This document shows, one piece after another, positions 2,623 through 10,839 of a stretch of 45,956 bases of DNA. Below the pieces are notes generated by a model. It searched no databases and was not told the DNA's origin. It was given only the letters and a program-made list of their open reading frames with translations. Source of the stretch: an uncultured Verrucomicrobia subdivision 3 bacterium. Lineage in GTDB: Bacteria > Verrucomicrobiota > Verrucomicrobiia > Limisphaerales > UBA11358. The stretch spans positions 1 through 45,956 of the forward strand of contig CAILDU010000027.1 in NCBI GenBank assembly GCA_903833055.1. The letters run 5' to 3'. Each line of letters opens with the position of its first letter. The stretch's first letter is position 1. Made by a program: the position numbers and the translations under genes.

Positions 2623-3036
2623 TCAGTTGCCACCCGGCGGCGGCCCCGACGGAGGCGTGTTGCCACCATCTTCACCGGGCGGAGGACCGGGCGGACGATT
2701 ATTATCGCCAGCAGCTTGACCGCCCTGACCACCACCACGTTGCGGACGCGGCCCCATGAATTCATCCCGCGTCAACTTGCCGTCGCCATTTTTATCCAGC
2801 GCCTTCAACGCCGTGCTGGCATTGGCGATTTCATCCGCATCAATCACGCCATCTCCATTTTTATCCAGCGCCTTGATGATCGCCGGCATCGGCGGACGAC
2901 CGCCCATCCGCTGGCCACCGTCGCCCGCGCCACCATCCGGTGGCCCGCCCGGCGATTGGTTGTTGTCCTGTGCATTGACCGCCAGCGCCAAAGCGCTGAT
3001 GGCCGCCATCACTGCCACTGTCATTTTTGTTTTCAT
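2623..3036 (-). CDS. Secreted EF-hand domain protein with Pro/Gly-rich C-terminal tail
   Basis: Signal peptide MKTKMTVAVMAAISALALAVNAQ; two EF-hand loops DKNGDGVIDADE and DKNGDGKLTRDE; tail NNRPPGPPPGEDGGNTPPSGPPPGGN. Confidence 0.88.
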   Translation of the reverse strand: MKTKMTVAVMAAISALALAVNAQDNNQSPGGPPDGGAGDGGQRMGGRPPMPAIIKALDKNGDGVIDADEIANASTALKALDKNGDGKLTRDEFMGPRPQRGGGQGGQAAGDNNRPPGPPPGEDGGNTPPSGPPPGGN

Positions 3037-3076: not shown

Positions 3077-3484
3077 TTAGGCGTGCGCCAGCAAATCCAT
3101 TTTCACTCCCGCCTCGGCCAAAACCGCGCGCAGCGTCTCTATCGGAAACGGCTTGTTCAGCAAACCGCAAAATCCTGCGTGCCGCGCCGCCGCCGCCGTG
3201 AAAAATCCGCTGCCCGTCGCCAGAATAATTTTCTGCGCCGGCGCGAGTGTCAGCATCCGGCGGCAAAGCTCCACACCGTCCATGCCCGGCATTTCAAAAT
3301 CTGTGATGACCACTTCGTATTTCTCCGGCGCATCGGCGAACGCCGCCAGCGCGGTCTGCGGCGAATTGAACCGTTCAATTTCCGCGTCCGTCAGATTTTC
3401 CACCAGCGCCGACATCAACTCCAAAACGTCCGCGTTATCGTCCACCAGCATCCAATGTTTAGTCGCATCAAAAATATTTTTCAT
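3077..3484 (-). CDS. Stand-alone response regulator receiver domain protein
   Basis: MLVDDNADVLELM..., VVITDFEMPGMDGVELC phospho-acceptor region, ILATGSG, LLNKPF; no output domain (135 aa). Confidence 0.88.
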   Translation of the reverse strand: MKNIFDATKHWMLVDDNADVLELMSALVENLTDAEIERFNSPQTALAAFADAPEKYEVVITDFEMPGMDGVELCRRMLTLAPAQKIILATGSGFFTAAAARHAGFCGLLNKPFPIETLRAVLAEAGVKMDLLAHA

Positions 3485-3600: not shown

Positions 3601-3631
3601 ACCTGAAGTAACCTTAAGGAATCGTTAAGGT
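3601..3631 (-). promoter_or_regulatory. Candidate OmpR/PmrA-type direct-repeat operator upstream of the receiver/EF-hand unit
   Basis: Minus-strand sequence ACCTTAACGATTCCTTAAGGTTACTTCAGGT: half-sites CTTAACGATTC, CTTAAGGTTAC, TTCAGGT about 11 bp apart. Confidence 0.5.
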
Positions 3632-3646
3632 GAAAAGATTTTGAAA

Positions 3647-5428
3647 TTATTTTCCAACCGAAGAAAACTGCGCGTCCGTCAACGTTTTGAGAAAAGCCAC
3701 CAGCGCGCGCTTGTCCGATTCCGTCAACGGCACGCCGCCATCGGGATGCTTGGCGAGATTTGGATCCAACGTCGCACTGCGCGGAATGCCCGTGGAATAA
3801 TGGCGAATCACATCTTCCAACGTGCGAAAACGCCCGTCGTGCATATACGGCGCGGTGAGTTCCACATTCCGCAATGACGGCACGGAAAACTTTCCACGGT
3901 CGCTCGCTTTACCGGTGACTTTCTCGCGGCCAACATCTTTTAGTGCTCCGTCCGAACCATTATTTGCAAAGCTTTGGCTCTGAAATAATGGTCCACCGTG
4001 GCAATGAAAACAGTCCGCGCCAAACTGCCCGCGACGCGGATCGTATTCCGTGGAAAACAATTCAAACCCGCGCTGCTCCTCCGCCGTGAATTTTTCCTCG
4101 CCGCGCAAAACGCGGTCGAACTTCGCGTTGAACGAAGTCAGCGTGAGCAGATAATTTTCCAGCGCGAGCGAGATTTTTTCCGCCGTAATTTCCGGCGCGC
4201 CGAACGCGGCGGTGAAAATGGCGGGATAGTCCGTTTCCGCTTTCCGCTTTCCGCTTTCCGCTTTTTCATTTTGTAATTTCGCCACCAGATTCGTCAGCGT
4301 CTGGTGCATCTCAATCGGATTTTGAATCGGCTGCAAAACTTGTTCCCGCAAACTTTTCGCGCGGCCATCCCAGAAAAATTCCTTCTGCCACGCGAGATTA
4401 AACAGCGGCATGGAATTGCGCGTTCCAAATTCACCTTCCGCGCCGCGCGCCGTGCGGCGTCCATCCGAAAACGCTTTTTCTGGCGCATGGCAGTCGGCAC
4501 ACGATTGCGCGTTATTGATGGAAAGTTGTTTATCGAAGAAAAGTTTTCTCCCAAGTTCAACGCGTTCGACAGTGAGCGGATTGTCGCGCGGCAGATCGGG
4601 AATTGGAAACGTTGCGCTCATCTGGAATTGATACGGCGTAAATTTTTCCGGCAAATAAAGCGGCTTCGGATGTGCGACGGCAATTTCTGCATCAGTCAGC
4701 GAAGTGATTTTGTGGACGCGAAACGCACCCGCAAGATTGACGACGAGCGCGGCGGAAATTGGATCGCCGTCGCGCGAGTGCGTGGACGAACCGTCTTTGC
4801 CAAACGAAAGTGGACGCGGTGCGTTCAGTAAAGTTGCCAGATCAAAATCCATTTCAATCTTGGTTTCATTGGTGATTTGCAGCGGCGCAGCAAGTGTGAT
4901 GCACGTGGCGTTGGTGTCGCGCGCGAGGTGATACGCCCAGCCATCCATCTCGCCATTCGCGTTGCGCCACAAACCTTCGAGCGCGAGAAAAATAAACCCG
5001 CCCTGCCAGCTCCAATGCAATCCGTTGAGATTTGGATTCAGCGGATGGATTGCGGGAAATTTTGCGATGTCCGCGTGATTTAGGTTTGTGTTCAGCCCGA
5101 CGAGAAAGCGCACGGAACAAAATTCGCCCGCCGGAATTTGGTCGAGCCAGATGGAATTGCGGTTCGCATCAAAGTCCAGCCACGCGACGGAGTTGGAAAT
5201 TTCCAGCCACGAGCCGTCGTTGCGTTGCAGTGCAAAATCGCTGACAAGATAACTGACGCGCGTAATGGAAAAAGTTTCGCCCGCCGAAGTCTGGTAGCGG
5301 AAGGAAGCGGGCTGCAAATTTTCGCCGGAAACTTTCGGCGTGATTTCAATTTGCAACGTGGCGGCAGACGCCAAATTAAAACCGTAAAAAATGACGAGAC
5401 AAAAAATAATTTTCCGCGCCAGTTTCAT
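3647..5428 (-). CDS. Fusion protein: N-terminal MbnP-like domain plus C-terminal di-heme cytochrome c peroxidase (MauG/MbnH-like)
   Basis: ATG at 5428 (overlaps upstream TGA as ATGA) gives MKLARKIIFCLVIFYGFNLASAA signal peptide. MbnP-like segment ITRVSYLVSDFAL...GLHWSWQGGFIFLALEG. Peroxidase segment with two CxxCH haem sites (CADCH, CFHCH) and TAPYMHDGRFRTLEDVIRHY. Confidence 0.88.
   Translation of the reverse strand: MKLARKIIFCLVIFYGFNLASAATLQIEITPKVSGENLQPASFRYQTSAGETFSITRVSYLVSDFALQRNDGSWLEISNSVAWLDFDANRNSIWLDQIPAGEFCSVRFLVGLNTNLNHADIAKFPAIHPLNPNLNGLHWSWQGGFIFLALEGLWRNANGEMDGWAYHLARDTNATCITLAAPLQITNETKIEMDFDLATLLNAPRPLSFGKDGSSTHSRDGDPISAALVVNLAGAFRVHKITSLTDAEIAVAHPKPLYLPEKFTPYQFQMSATFPIPDLPRDNPLTVERVELGRKLFFDKQLSINNAQSCADCHAPEKAFSDGRRTARGAEGEFGTRNSMPLFNLAWQKEFFWDGRAKSLREQVLQPIQNPIEMHQTLTNLVAKLQNEKAESGKRKAETDYPAIFTAAFGAPEITAEKISLALENYLLTLTSFNAKFDRVLRGEEKFTAEEQRGFELFSTEYDPRRGQFGADCFHCHGGPLFQSQSFANNGSDGALKDVGREKVTGKASDRGKFSVPSLRNVELTAPYMHDGRFRTLEDVIRHYSTGIPRSATLDPNLAKHPDGGVPLTESDKRALVAFLKTLTDAQFSSVGK
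4234..4261. repeat. Perfect 4x TTTCCGC heptamer repeat inside the mbnP-mauG fusion gene
   Basis: TTTCCGC TTTCCGC TTTCCGC TTTCCGC; encodes part of EKAESGKRKAETDY on the minus strand. Confidence 0.95.
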
Positions 5429-6717
5429 TTTGAATCGTAGCCGCCGTTGCCGGAATTCCAAGTGAGCGTGGTGGTTTTCATTGCCGTTTTTACAGGCGCA
5501 ATTGGATGCGCGAGAAAGTTCGTTGTCACCGGTTCAAAGATGCCGCGAACAAGTTGACCATTCGGATAACCGTGAAAGCGCCGACCCATGTTGTAAGGAT
5601 AAATGGGTTTGCCATCCGCATCAATCGTCGTGAAGTAGGCGAACGTGCCGTGCGGGAATTCCGGTGTGACGCACCAGCGACCGTTGAATTCGTCGAGGTC
5701 GAAATCTTTGCCGAAAGTTTTTCCACGGTCGCTGAGAAACGCATAATCCTCAATGTAATGGCCGAGCGGATAATTTTCGCTGACGTTCGGGCCGGTCTCA
5801 AAAGTTTGCAGCGCGGCGGAACGATTTTGTTCGCGCGCTTCCCAAGTGGGTAACGTGTGACGGCCAGTTTGCGCGAGATTGTCCGCGCCGTTTTGTCCGT
5901 CGCGTAATACGAAACCGGAAATCATCCGGCGGATTCCGCTGGCGGGATTGGTTGGATTGGAAAAACCAAACGGGCCGTAAATTGGATAGCCGTCCTGCAT
6001 CCAGCCGAGAATCGGCGAATGTTTTTGCGGCGCGCTGGAACTTTCGCGATACGTTTTTGTCGCGGCGTCAAAATCAACGTGGTCGCCGAGCAAATAACGC
6101 AGCGCGATGGGCTCGACGTGATAGTGGTAAGTGCCCCGATTTTGCTGGTGCGCGAGCGCGGCGTCGAATGTGCGGCCTTCGTTCACGAGCGCGTCGCGAT
6201 TCCAAATGCGGTCGCCCTGGCCGATGCCGGTGCGCGGGCTGGCGTCCTGATTATTTTGGTGCGAGTAAGAAAACGAATCGCAAGCATCAAACATCCGCAC
6301 GCCGTCCACGAACATTCCGATTTCGCCGAGACGATTAAAATTATTTCCGGTCTGAATTTTTGGATGGCGCGGAATCGCAAAAATAAAATGCTGGTCGGTG
6401 GGCAGATTGGGAAACCAGCCGTTCTGCCACGGCCCCATCGTTTGGCTGGCGAGGCCGGTGCTGCGGACGTAAATCCAATTGGTTGAAGAAACAATTTCTT
6501 GAACGCCACAATACGCTGGCTGCGATTGGTTATTTCGTCCGTTGCTCCAAGTTGTTTCAGTCGTGCCGGAATTTTTCTCCGCTGGCGTGCGGTAGATTTG
6601 CGCGAACTTGCCGGAGTCCAGCGTGAACCACGAAGTAATTTGTGGGTCGGCAAAAGCATTCGCCGTCAACGCGCAGAAAATTGTGACAGTGGAAATAATT
6701 TTCATGGAACGAATCAC
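5425..6717 (-). CDS. YHYH domain-containing secreted protein (paralog 2); start may be ATG at 6705
   Basis: Signal peptide MKIISTVTIFCALTANAFA; motif GTYHYHVEPIALRYLLGDHVDFD; HSPILGWMQDGYPIYGPFG; GRWCVTPEFPHGTFAYFTTIDADGKPIYPYNMG. Confidence 0.88.
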   Translation of the reverse strand: MIRSMKIISTVTIFCALTANAFADPQITSWFTLDSGKFAQIYRTPAEKNSGTTETTWSNGRNNQSQPAYCGVQEIVSSTNWIYVRSTGLASQTMGPWQNGWFPNLPTDQHFIFAIPRHPKIQTGNNFNRLGEIGMFVDGVRMFDACDSFSYSHQNNQDASPRTGIGQGDRIWNRDALVNEGRTFDAALAHQQNRGTYHYHVEPIALRYLLGDHVDFDAATKTYRESSSAPQKHSPILGWMQDGYPIYGPFGFSNPTNPASGIRRMISGFVLRDGQNGADNLAQTGRHTLPTWEAREQNRSAALQTFETGPNVSENYPLGHYIEDYAFLSDRGKTFGKDFDLDEFNGRWCVTPEFPHGTFAYFTTIDADGKPIYPYNMGRRFHGYPNGQLVRGIFEPVTTNFLAHPIAPVKTAMKTTTLTWNSGNGGYDSK

Positions 6718-8519
6718 GGGTTGATCGTCAAGGCGCTGCTGAACGTGAACGGCGGTGGACCATTCTGGAAAGTGACTACGACGGTTTGCGTGCCGGTGGT
6801 GGCGTTCGCCGGAATCGTGAAGTTTGCTACCACCGTGCCTTGGGTGGTGTAGGAGGTGCTCGTGGCCGTGAGCGTTCCCAACGTGACGCTGGTGATGGGG
6901 TCGGTGGTCGGCGGCGAGGGCGGAGTGCCGGGGAGCGTAATGTTCAAGGTAATGTTAGTGCCGGAACCGCGACTGACCACGCCACTGCCCGGAACCGCAA
7001 AAGTCGCGCCGCTGCCGCCGCCGCCGCCGCTGCTCGTGTAACCGCCGGTTCCGGGTGAATCGTAAGTGGCCAAGGCTGTTTCCGCGACGCGGTAGAAACG
7101 GTATTTGTCCGTGGGATTATTTGTGTAGCTCGCGGCGTTCAGCACGGCGGAAACGGTTGTTGAATTCGTTATCCATGTTGTCAGGTTCGTTGTGGACAAA
7201 ACCAAGTAAGTGCCGCCTTCAATCGCGCTCCAACTTAAAGTGACGGTGCCGTTTTTCGCCGTGGGCGAATTGAGCGACGGCACGGCGTTCGGGCCGCCGA
7301 AGTAGTTGGTGACGACGCTTTCCGTGATGCTGGTGGTGCTCGCACCGGTGGGATTGCCGTAGTATTGAAAGCCGATGTTGTAAGGAAATAACGGTGTGCC
7401 GTTGGAGGAAATCGCGGTGAAGTAAGCGTAAGTGCCACCGGGAAATTCTGGCGTGACGCACCAGCGGCCATTGTATTCGTCGAGGTCAAAGGTGTTCGTG
7501 CCTTGCGTGTAGCCGAGATCGCCGAGGTAATCGTTGTCTTCCATGTAGTGACCGAGCGGATAGGTCGTGCTGACGGCGGGACCGGCGAGGATGTTGGAGG
7601 CGACGCCATACATCCGCACCGCCCATTGCGGCAAATAACTGCGACCCACGCTGGTGAGATTTTGCGAGCCAAATTGGCCGTTGCGCAAAACGTAGCCGGG
7701 CACCATCAGGCGAATACCGCTCGCGGCGTTGTTGGAAATGGAATAACCATACGGCCCGTAGATGGGATAACCATCCGCCACCCAGCCGATGATGGGCGAA
7801 TGTTTCGTCGGCGTGCTGGCGGATTCAGTGTAAGCCTTGTTGGTCAGATTAAAATCCACATGGTCGCCAAGAAAATAGCGGAGCGCGGGCGGGTTGGCGT
7901 GGTAATGATACTGGCCGCTGCCGGGCTGATGCGCGTTTGCCGGATCGAACGTCACGCCTTCATTCACATAGGCATCGCGATTCCAGTAACCGGAATTACC
8001 CGTGCTATTGACCTCGGCGGTGCCGTTCCAATATTGCGCGTCCCAACTATTGAACATCGTCACGCCGTCCACGAAGTAACCGATACTGCCGCCTTTGTTC
8101 TGCGTTTTGCTGACAGGCACGGTGGGGTAGCGCGGAATTTTGTAGAGCACATGCTGGTTCGTCGGCCAGCCGGGAAAAGCCGTGGTGTGTGCCGCGTTCA
8201 GATACCACGGCCCCATCACATGACTGCCCAAACCGGAGCTGCGCAGGTAAACCCAGTTACTCGACGAATACACTTCCTGCACGCCGCAATAAGCTGGCGT
8301 CGACTGCGTCTGCGAGCCGTTGCTCCACGTCGTCAACGCCGTGCCGGCGGTCTTCATCGCGTTGTTGGTGTAGATGCGCGCGTATTGGCTGGAATAAGTC
8401 GTGAACCACGAATTCGTGCGCGGGTCGGCAGCCTGCGCGACGGTTGCGAGCGCAAAAATAATTCCCGTCAGCGCGGCGGTGAAGTTCAATTTTCGTTGGG
8501 TGTGAATTTGAGTTTTCAT
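6714..8519 (-). CDS. YHYH domain-containing secreted protein (paralog 1) with extra C-terminal beta-rich region
   Basis: QYHYHANPPALRYFLGDHVDFN, HSPIIGWVADGYPIYGPYGY, GRWCVTPEFPGGTYAYFTAISSNGTPLFPYNIG; Thr/Gly-rich C-terminal extension. Confidence 0.88.
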   Translation of the reverse strand: MKTQIHTQRKLNFTAALTGIIFALATVAQAADPRTNSWFTTYSSQYARIYTNNAMKTAGTALTTWSNGSQTQSTPAYCGVQEVYSSSNWVYLRSSGLGSHVMGPWYLNAAHTTAFPGWPTNQHVLYKIPRYPTVPVSKTQNKGGSIGYFVDGVTMFNSWDAQYWNGTAEVNSTGNSGYWNRDAYVNEGVTFDPANAHQPGSGQYHYHANPPALRYFLGDHVDFNLTNKAYTESASTPTKHSPIIGWVADGYPIYGPYGYSISNNAASGIRLMVPGYVLRNGQFGSQNLTSVGRSYLPQWAVRMYGVASNILAGPAVSTTYPLGHYMEDNDYLGDLGYTQGTNTFDLDEYNGRWCVTPEFPGGTYAYFTAISSNGTPLFPYNIGFQYYGNPTGASTTSITESVVTNYFGGPNAVPSLNSPTAKNGTVTLSWSAIEGGTYLVLSTTNLTTWITNSTTVSAVLNAASYTNNPTDKYRFYRVAETALATYDSPGTGGYTSSGGGGGSGATFAVPGSGVVSRGSGTNITLNITLPGTPPSPPTTDPITSVTLGTLTATSTSYTTQGTVVANFTIPANATTGTQTVVVTFQNGPPPFTFSSALTINP

Positions 8520-8537: not shown

Positions 8538-8630
8538 CGAACCTTAAGCGAACGTGAAGCGTGAAATTTTTGCACAGGCTGCGCAATTATTTTCTTCATC
8601 TCGCCTTAAGGTTGCTTCTGCGAACGTGAC
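8538..8630. promoter_or_regulatory. Divergent intergenic region with two CTTAAGG-type direct-repeat elements
   Basis: Minus strand around 8540-8560: CTTCACGTTCG CTTAAGGTTCG (11-bp repeat). Plus strand 8602-8630: CGCCTTAAGGTTGCTTCTGCGAACGTGAC. GCGAACGTGA present in both. Confidence 0.5.
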
Positions 8631-8671
8631 GACCGTGCGCGGCTGTGTTAAACATTTCCGCGCACACGAAC

Positions 8672-9322
8672 ATGAGAATTCTCATCGTTGAAGACGAACC
8701 CGATTTGCTCGCGAGCCTCGCGCAGGCGTTGCGCGAGGAAGGTTACGCCGTGGACACCGCCGACAATGGCGACGACGGACTTTTCAACGCCGAAGGCACG
8801 GACTACGACGCAATAATTTTAGACGTGATGTTGCCCGGCATTGACGGCTGGGAAATTCTCAAGCGCCTCCGCAAAACTAAAAAAACGCCCGTGCTCATGC
8901 TCACCGCGCGCGACCAGACGCGCGACCGCGTGAAAGGCCTAGACACCGGCGCGGACGATTACGTCGTCAAACCGTTTGACCTCGAAGAAGTTTTCGCGCG
9001 CCTCCGCGCCATCATCCGCCGCAGCGCGAATAAAACCACGAACTTAATTGAAATTGGCGACGTAAAAATCGACACCGCCGCGCGCAATATTTTTCTCAAG
9101 GACAAGCCAGTGGAAATCACCGCGCGCGAATATGCGCTCGTAGAATTTCTCGCGCTACATCGCGGCGAAGTGGTCACGCGCACGCAGCTTTACGAGCATC
9201 TTTTCGACGAAAACGAAAGTTCGCTTTCAAATCTTTTGGACGTTCATGTTTCCAACGTCCGCAAAAAATTGGGCGCAGAATTCATCGCCACCCGGCGCGG
9301 CCACGGCTATTGCATCGAATGA
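8672..9322 (+). CDS. OmpR-family response regulator (CusR/CopR-like)
   Basis: MRILIVEDEPDLLASLAQALREEGYAVDTADNGDDGL...DAIILDVMLPGIDGWEILKRLR...VKPFDLEEVFARLRAIIRR; winged-helix C-terminus with LDVHVSNVRKKLG. Confidence 0.92.
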   Translation: MRILIVEDEPDLLASLAQALREEGYAVDTADNGDDGLFNAEGTDYDAIILDVMLPGIDGWEILKRLRKTKKTPVLMLTARDQTRDRVKGLDTGADDYVVKPFDLEEVFARLRAIIRRSANKTTNLIEIGDVKIDTAARNIFLKDKPVEITAREYALVEFLALHRGEVVTRTQLYEHLFDENESSLSNLLDVHVSNVRKKLGAEFIATRRGHGYCIE

Positions 9323-10839
9323 AAATTTTCAAATCCATCAAGTGGCGATTGCAAATCTGGTATGGCCTGATTCTCGTCGTCGTGCTCGCGGGCTTCGGCA
9401 TCACCGCGTATCAACTGGAGCGCAACCGCCAGTTCCGCCAGGTTGACGACGAACTGCACAGGCGTTTTGGTGTTCTGGCAAATGCGCTCCATCGTCCGCC
9501 GCCGCGTCGGCAGGACGCGGATCAACAGTCGTTCGACCGTCCGCCGCCCGACCAACTTTCTAACGATGGACCGCCGGGAAGAAGTTTCCGCCAGCCAACT
9601 GAATTTCATCTGCCGGAGCAGGACGCGCATTTTTTTGATGCCAGCGATCCGAATAATTTTTATTTCACAATTATTACGCGTGATGGCAGGGAACTTGGTG
9701 GTTCGACCAATCAGCCCACCCCAATTGGCGAACCGGCTCAAGAAACGAGTTCATATTCGCATCCCGTTAATCATGTTGACCAAGCGTTCTCTGTATCCAA
9801 ATTTAACGGGAATTTTCCCAAGCCGAATAAGGTCACCAGTTTTGGAAATCATCGGGAAACTGTGGAGATGCTGCCATCGGGAGAAATAATTGTGGTTGGT
9901 TGTTCCATTGCGCCGGAATTTAAAGAGCTTCAGCGCACGGCTGTGAATCTAACGGCGATTGGCAGTTTAATTTTAGTCGTCGGTCTCGTCGGCGGCTGGT
10001 GGCTGGTTTCGCGCGCCATCAAACCCATCAATGAAATCAGCGCGACGGCAGTGAAAATTTCCGCCGGCGATTTGTCGCAGCGCATCAACGTCGCCGAGGC
10101 GGAAAGCGAACTCGGCCAGCTCGCCGCCGTTTTGAATTCCACCTTCGCGCGCCTCGAATCCGCGTTCGCGCAGCAGAAACAATTTGCCTCCGACGCGGCG
10201 CATGAATTACGCACGCCAGTTTCAGTAATCCTCACGCAAACGCAAACGTCGCTGAACCGCGAGCGCGACGCTGCGAGCTACAAACAAACCGTCGAAGCCT
10301 GCCAGCGCGCGGCGCAGCGGATGCGGAAATTAATCGAGTCGCTGCTCGCGCTCGCGCGGTTCGACGCCGGTCAGGAAATTCTGAAACGCCAGCAGTTTGA
10401 TTTTTCAAAAACGATTTCCGATTGCGCGGAACTCGTGTCGCCGCTCTCGGACGAGCGCGGTGTGAAAATTTCCATTGAAGCTGAACCCGTTGAAATCATT
10501 GGCGATTCCGAGCGGCTCGCGCAGGTTGTTACGAATCTTTTGACGAACGCAATTCAATACAACAATCCCGATGGCGAAGTGCGCGTAAAGCTAGAATCGC
10601 AAAATGGTTTGGCCGTTTTGACCGTGGCAGACACGGGGCAGGGGATTGCCGCCGAAAATCTGCCGCAAGTTTTCGGCAGATTTTTCCGCGCTGATTCGTC
10701 ACGCACCGGCGCGGGAAATTCTGGTCTTGGCCTTGCGATTACCAAAGCGATTGTCGAGGCGCACGGCGGGACGATTGAAGTGGCGAGTGAAGAAAATGCG
10801 GGAACAACTTTCACCGTGCGGTTGCCAATCTCCGCGTAG
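9319..10839 (+). CDS. Sensor histidine kinase (HAMP, HisKA, HATPase_c); ATGA overlap with the response regulator
   Basis: TM helix, periplasmic Pro-rich domain, second TM, H-box DAAHELRTPVSVILTQTQ, N-box VVTNLLTNAIQYN, G-boxes DTGQGI and GNSGLGLAITK. Confidence 0.92.
   Translation: MKIFKSIKWRLQIWYGLILVVVLAGFGITAYQLERNRQFRQVDDELHRRFGVLANALHRPPPRRQDADQQSFDRPPPDQLSNDGPPGRSFRQPTEFHLPEQDAHFFDASDPNNFYFTIITRDGRELGGSTNQPTPIGEPAQETSSYSHPVNHVDQAFSVSKFNGNFPKPNKVTSFGNHRETVEMLPSGEIIVVGCSIAPEFKELQRTAVNLTAIGSLILVVGLVGGWWLVSRAIKPINEISATAVKISAGDLSQRINVAEAESELGQLAAVLNSTFARLESAFAQQKQFASDAAHELRTPVSVILTQTQTSLNRERDAASYKQTVEACQRAAQRMRKLIESLLALARFDAGQEILKRQQFDFSKTISDCAELVSPLSDERGVKISIEAEPVEIIGDSERLAQVVTNLLTNAIQYNNPDGEVRVKLESQNGLAVLTVADTGQGIAAENLPQVFGRFFRADSSRTGAGNSGLGLAITKAIVEAHGGTIEVASEENAGTTFTVRLPISA

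Follow-up and report, generated by a model that had tools for sequence, protein, structure and literature searches.

The locus considered here raises the question of whether a single gene of an uncultured verrucomicrobial bacterium encodes both a copper protein of the MbnP type and the di-haem enzyme that modifies it and, if so, what such a protein may do. The chemistry of the MbnH–MbnP couple, in which Trp is converted to kynurenine, depends on an encounter between two proteins that is difficult to investigate. In a naturally fused protein, the stoichiometry is fixed and the partners are tethered, so that electron transfer from haem to Trp and the role of kynurenine in copper binding become testable with one gene. 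The window, i.e. the whole stretch of 45,956 nucleotides that was analysed, was examined together with related loci from other genomes.

Domain layout and predicted fold

The original prediction described one uninterrupted reading frame, and its coordinates were exact; the strand, which had not been given, is the minus strand (Table 1). The frame is free of internal stops, which do occur on the plus strand of the same interval. The Pfam family PF20243 matches residues 24–203 with 113.1 bits (curated cut-off, 27; E = 2e-32), and PF03150 (CCP_MauG) matches residues 288–446 with 183 bits (E = 5e-54). The intervening region varies in length, the spacing between D222 and P280, both fixed in the alignment, being 47–70 residues across the fusions.

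Table 1. Features of the fusion locus (positions in the window; aa, residues of the fusion protein)
Feature	Position	Strand	Remarks
Stand-alone response-regulator receiver protein	3077..3484	minus	downstream of second box
Second box, AACCTTAAGGAATCGTTAAGG	3610..3630	plus	between fusion end and receiver gene
MbnP-MbnH fusion gene	3647..5428	minus	593 aa, ATG start
Predicted Sec signal peptide	5360..5428	minus	aa 1-23, MKLARKIIFCLVIFYGFNLASAA; direct reading of sequence
MbnP domain (PF20243)	4820..5359	minus	aa 24-203; folded N-domain reaches about aa 245
WSW motif	5006..5014	minus	aa 139-141; W139 (5012-5014), predicted kynurenine site
His167, candidate Cu ligand	4928..4930	minus	aligned with His of MbnP HxGST motif
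His217, candidate second Cu ligand	4778..4780	minus	putative; aligned with Met of MbnP GCMS motif
Interdomain linker	4604..4696	minus	about aa 245-275; pLDDT drops to about 63 at aa 251-260 (AlphaFold2)
Di-haem MbnH/MauG-type domain	3665..4591	minus	aa 280-588; TIGR04039 and 6e1c matches
First haem c site, CADCH	4487..4501	minus	aa 310-314; Cys/Cys/His invariant
Second haem c site, CFHCH	3998..4012	minus	aa 473-477; Cys/Cys/His invariant
Tyr544, predicted axial ligand of six-coordinate haem	3797..3799	minus	alignment of 45 fusions
YHYH protein 1 (PF14240)	5425..6717	minus	stop overlaps fusion ATG (ATGA)
YHYH protein 2 (PF14240)	6714..8519	minus	4-base overlap with YHYH 1 (GTGA)
Direct-repeat box, AACCTTAAGCGAACGTGAAGC	8540..8560	plus	divergent promoter region; candidate response-regulator site
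Divergent response regulator	8645..9322	plus	nearest cztR/silR/copR heavy-metal family, 225 bits; cut-off of 279 not reached
Sensor histidine kinase	9310..10839	plus	nearest cztS/silS/copS, 289 bits; cut-off of 292.6 not reached

The full chain, modelled with AlphaFold2 from an 81-row alignment, reached a mean pLDDT of 91.8 and a pTM of 0.88. The best PDB match of this model is 6e1c (MbnH; MauG-like protein associated with copper homeostasis), which is also the best PDB match by sequence for the enzyme domain. Among NCBIfam families, the enzyme half is matched best by TIGR04039, the MbnH family di-heme enzyme (234.4 bits; cut-off of 362.9 not reached), and the score of the fusion against the tryptophan tryptophylquinone (TTQ) MauG family is 174 bits, compared with a cut-off of 444. 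The earlier assignment of the two-CxxCH half to the MbnH/MauG type is backed by both the family and the structural match.

The N-terminal domain, modelled alone by AlphaFold2 (pLDDT 97.1), gave significant Foldseek matches exclusively to six chains of 7l6g, the MbnP of Methylosinus trichosporium (E = 2e-9 to 1e-8, TM 0.60–0.66), with the next match at E = 0.016. A profile of N-terminal domains likewise reached 7l6g_A (E = 5e-7) and paired WSW with the WNW of that protein; profile and fold searches were required, as a single-sequence PDB search with the domain returned matches at the level of chance. The description of the N-terminus as MbnP-type holds with respect to the Pfam profile and the predicted fold, but does not extend to the MbnP equivalog. 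The TIGR04052 (MbnP_like_WxW) score of the N-terminal half is 36.8 bits, under the equivalog cut-off of 140, and the four-Cys pattern of MbnP (GSTGC...C, GCMS...C) was not found in the fusion upon alignment to bona fide MbnPs. Judged by its sequence, the fusion is outside the MbnP equivalog family, from which it differs in score, in Cys pattern and in a Met-to-His replacement that is considered below.

Distribution and origin of the fused architecture

The fusion is not a one-off but the standard architecture in the Verrucomicrobiota genomes sampled. The same fusion occurs in approximately 45 distinct verrucomicrobial proteins, and both domains are present in all 45 that were aligned. PF20243 was detected in 22 of 388 genomes of the Verrucomicrobiota sample, nearly always in frames of at least 578 aa, which carry both domains except at one frame-shifted locus (G108) and one broken locus (G121). 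The Bacteroidota sample (a phylum search around G390; the search around G389 gave identical genomes) contained PF20243 in 78 of 297 genomes, with a longest frame of 517 aa that encodes MbnP without the enzyme, the latter being encoded by the next frame. Separate, overlapping mbnP and mbnH genes were found in the Sumerlaeota group (3/40 genomes). In the sampled genomes, intact MbnP domains thus share a chain with the enzyme in Verrucomicrobiota, whereas those of Bacteroidota and Sumerlaeota are proteins of their own; the pairs of the latter two phyla belong to the same families but, unlike the fusion, were found in all cases inspected to consist of two (sometimes three) separate frames.

In Bacteroidota, in Sumerlaeota and at bona fide MbnP/MbnH loci, mbnP and mbnH stand side by side as separate genes, and the order P–H is common to the fusion and to the MbnP/MbnH pair of Methylosinus trichosporium. 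This arrangement would favour the view that the single frame arose from two neighbouring genes through an assembly or sequencing error. Such an artefact, or chance, is ruled out by an independent metagenome-assembled genome (MAG; locus L028) that encodes the fusion at 90 % identity and by the approximately 45 distinct fusions, several of which are located in single-contig genomes.

In a tree of the enzyme domain, 46 fusions group with three Sumerlaeota enzymes (91 % SH-aLRT), with two label changes needed, and a single origin of the fusion is compatible with the starred branches. The Sumerlaeota loci also possess the YHYH gene and the two-component pair in divergent orientation, as would fit the fusion of genes in a pre-existing YHYH–mbnP–mbnH operon. 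We infer that the direction was from separate to fused genes, with transfer or splitting as alternatives.

Three records from the genome searches deserve separate mention. Locus L137 (3228–7043; G121, from another class of Verrucomicrobiota) contains a YHYH gene and a truncated MbnP domain, followed approximately 2.5 kb further on by a di-haem domain with stops, and is probably a decayed or interrupted copy. The genome of locus L090, whose record bears the title Phycisphaerales bacterium MAG05, was placed among Bacteroidota by the genome search; the title is probably wrong, and the record carries no information on Planctomycetota. In plasmid records (L108–L112), the gene following mbnP is annotated as the ‘methanobactin export MATE transporter MbnM’, but it encodes a protein that resembles MbnH and carries two CxxCH motifs, so the public annotation is in error.

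Conserved residues and the predicted copper site

Four residues of the N-terminal domain, namely W139, H167, H217 and D222, are invariant in the 45 aligned fusions, and W139 and G111 are the only residues invariant across 67 N-terminal domains, of which 29 are from separate Bacteroidota or Sumerlaeota proteins. W141 is replaced by Pro in two fusions (HWDP and HWSP), both of which retain W139. In MbnP, the kynurenine reportedly arises from the first Trp of WxW, a published result that is matched by the invariance of W139 and by the two fusions devoid of W141. The modified residue is likely to be Trp139, the first W of WSW (within GLHWSWQGGFIFLALEG, residues 136–152), rather than both Trp residues. 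Of the two Trp residues originally put forward as modification sites, the first, which is aligned with the MbnP WxW, remains a candidate, and the second probably does not.

The copper site of MbnP is described as consisting of one His, one Met and a solvent molecule, with a kynurenine nearby. In an alignment that includes bona fide MbnPs (Methylocystis, Ideonella, Paracoccus and Trichormus plasmids), the HLGST His falls at H167 and the GCMS Met at H217. The invariant MbnP His is matched by His167, but the position of the GCMS Met is occupied by His217, so copper binding by the fusion may differ from that by MbnP. Such a Met-to-His exchange suggests a His/His/Kyn copper site resembling that of MopE and CorA, which is composed of two His residues, kynurenine and water (PMC3912023). 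The MopE/SACCP and CorA/CorB systems resemble the fusion in this predicted set of ligands (PMC3912023) and combine a kynurenine Cu(I) site with a gene for a di-haem enzyme; in contrast to the fusion, they consist of separate proteins of methanotrophs. MopE and CorA have no marked sequence similarity to MbnP (PMC3621798).

The invariant residues of the enzyme domain in the 45 fusions comprise both CxxCH motifs, W347, W353, Q363, E373 and Y544. Tyr544 is aligned with the axial Met of MacA and with the Tyr of MbnH; ligation of haem by Tyr and His has been described for MauG and BthA (PMC6405878). As to the predicted haem ligand, a comparison for which the original prediction had already called, the fusion thus agrees with MbnH rather than with the bacterial peroxidases, in which the residue is Met. 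W347 is aligned with an aromatic residue of the MbnHs and may possibly act as an electron-hopping relay.

These positions also bear on the possibility that the protein is an ordinary periplasmic peroxidase resembling bacterial cytochrome c peroxidases (bCcPs), which would detoxify H2O2 and use the MbnP domain for structure or copper sensing. The enzyme domain does fall within the bCcP/MauG superfamily and retains FWDGRA, as in bCcPs. However, the axial Met of bCcPs is replaced by Tyr544 in 45 of 45 fusions, the best match by sequence and fold is MbnH and not a peroxidase, and the conserved Trp and His residues of the MbnP domain would be left unexplained; we consider this function very unlikely.

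Genomic context and proposed function

The reading that we regard as fairly probable is that the fusion is an exported, self-modifying copper protein that converts its own Trp to kynurenine and supplies or buffers copper for its neighbours. The di-haem domain, with a second haem ligated by His and Tyr as in MauG and MbnH, would react with peroxide or O2 to reach a high-valent state, in which it would convert Trp139 in the fused MbnP domain into kynurenine by oxidation. This step might proceed within one chain or across a homodimer, intramolecular oxidation and action in trans being equally possible. The modified domain would then bind one Cu(I) through His167, His217 and a solvent molecule, with Kyn139 nearby, and extracytoplasmic copper could be supplied to, or buffered for, the YHYH proteins or, in other species, copper radical oxidases resembling galactose oxidase.

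The copper context is suggested by galactose-oxidase-like neighbours, described below, and by the divergent two-component pair of heavy-metal type. Among 50 flanks of fusion loci, which are of unequal length and include a few duplicated loci, 15 contain YHYH genes, 12 a galactose-oxidase-like neighbour and 13 a related two-component gene. The galactose-oxidase-like gene directly follows the fusion (L007, L011, L016, L018–L020, L025, L037, L038, L042, L045 and L050). The product from L038 matches galactose oxidase (9g8h) with E = 1e-98, and the four aligned oxidase members retain the cysteine of HDMFC/HDLFC, the tyrosine of RWY, the YHS pair and the histidine of TH, which we take to be the copper and cofactor ligands of galactose oxidase. 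Several of these oxidases are 1,500–1,700 aa or longer and include lectin, PKD or PA14 domains, and some carry part of a di-haem peroxidase at the C-terminus. The examined flanks of the separate Bacteroidota pairs contained neither a YHYH nor a galactose-oxidase-like gene.

In the window, the two YHYH genes precede the fusion gene, and the stop/start overlap indicates that YHYH 1 and the fusion are probably translationally coupled. An operon of YHYH, MbnP and MbnH genes is conserved in two phyla (5425–8519 on the minus strand, upstream of the fusion, and loci L054, L139 and L140), which makes the YHYH proteins candidates for a role in copper handling and provides a first functional lead for them. 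No solved structural relative of the YHYH proteins (PF14240) was found, nor did the literature searched yield a paper linking ‘YHYH domain’ to copper. A more far-reaching proposal, namely that a self-maturing kynurenine copper protein, substrate and enzyme in one chain with a His/His/Kyn site, serves specifically to provide copper to secreted copper radical oxidases and to YHYH proteins, the latter then being uncharacterised copper proteins themselves, is put forward only tentatively.

The same context could be taken to mean that the fused MbnH-type enzyme acts on another protein, such as a YHYH protein of the operon, with the MbnP domain serving as a docking module or copper donor. The upstream YHYH genes and the fusion gene form a series of overlapping genes, YHYH genes recur beside fusions and beside a separate Sumerlaeota pair, and MauG modifies a foreign substrate. 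MauG is comparable to the fusion as a di-haem enzyme with His/Tyr-ligated haem that oxidizes Trp in a protein substrate; the difference is that this substrate is a subunit of a foreign enzyme (preMADH) and the product is TTQ. However, W139 is invariant, as expected for a modified residue, and many fusions lack YHYH in the examined flank, so that YHYH cannot be the general substrate. Action on a foreign protein thus appears unlikely, and self-modification remains the preferred reading.

In the source MAG, which is 86 % complete, PF20243 and PF03150 were each detected once, in both cases in the fusion gene, though at this completeness a further gene for MbnP or MauG may be absent from the assembly. 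Its two YHYH proteins are both encoded in the fusion operon, and cytochrome c assembly proteins are present. Most related genomes with a fusion contain additional CCP_MauG proteins, so the fusion as sole partner is not a general rule. MbnB (PF05114) was not found in this 86 % complete MAG by a search that matched in two control genomes. The earlier statement that methanobactin biosynthesis genes are lacking holds for MbnB, the one family searched, and a methanobactin operon was rejected as an explanation of the locus.

Compared with MbnP/MbnH of Methylosinus trichosporium (7l6g/6e1c), the fusion has the same two domains, a WxW motif, the conserved His, the di-haem fold and Tyr at the ligand position, but it is one polypeptide instead of two, it misses both equivalog cut-offs, and methanobactin genes were not found with it. 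The components are known, and as far as the literature searched shows (older papers in the case of MbnP/MbnH), the clade-wide fused architecture and its neighbours have not been described; the domain pair may already be listed in the Pfam or InterPro architecture tables. Fused proteins in Verrucomicrobiota, accompanied by oxidases, YHYH proteins and regulators of heavy-metal type, place the MbnP family in its broad sense in a concrete context outside the methanotrophs.

Direct-repeat boxes of the CTTAAG type are located at 8540–8560, 8594–8610 and 3610–3630 and may be where the divergently encoded response regulator binds. The pattern AACCTTAAG...CGTKAAG has two matches (at 8540 and 3610) compared with 0.03 expected, an optimistic figure because the pattern was written from its two sites; similar boxes occur at corresponding places in two relatives (L028 and L141). 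A small EF-hand protein is encoded downstream of the receiver gene (2623–3036, minus strand) and also occurs near the fusion in both relatives.
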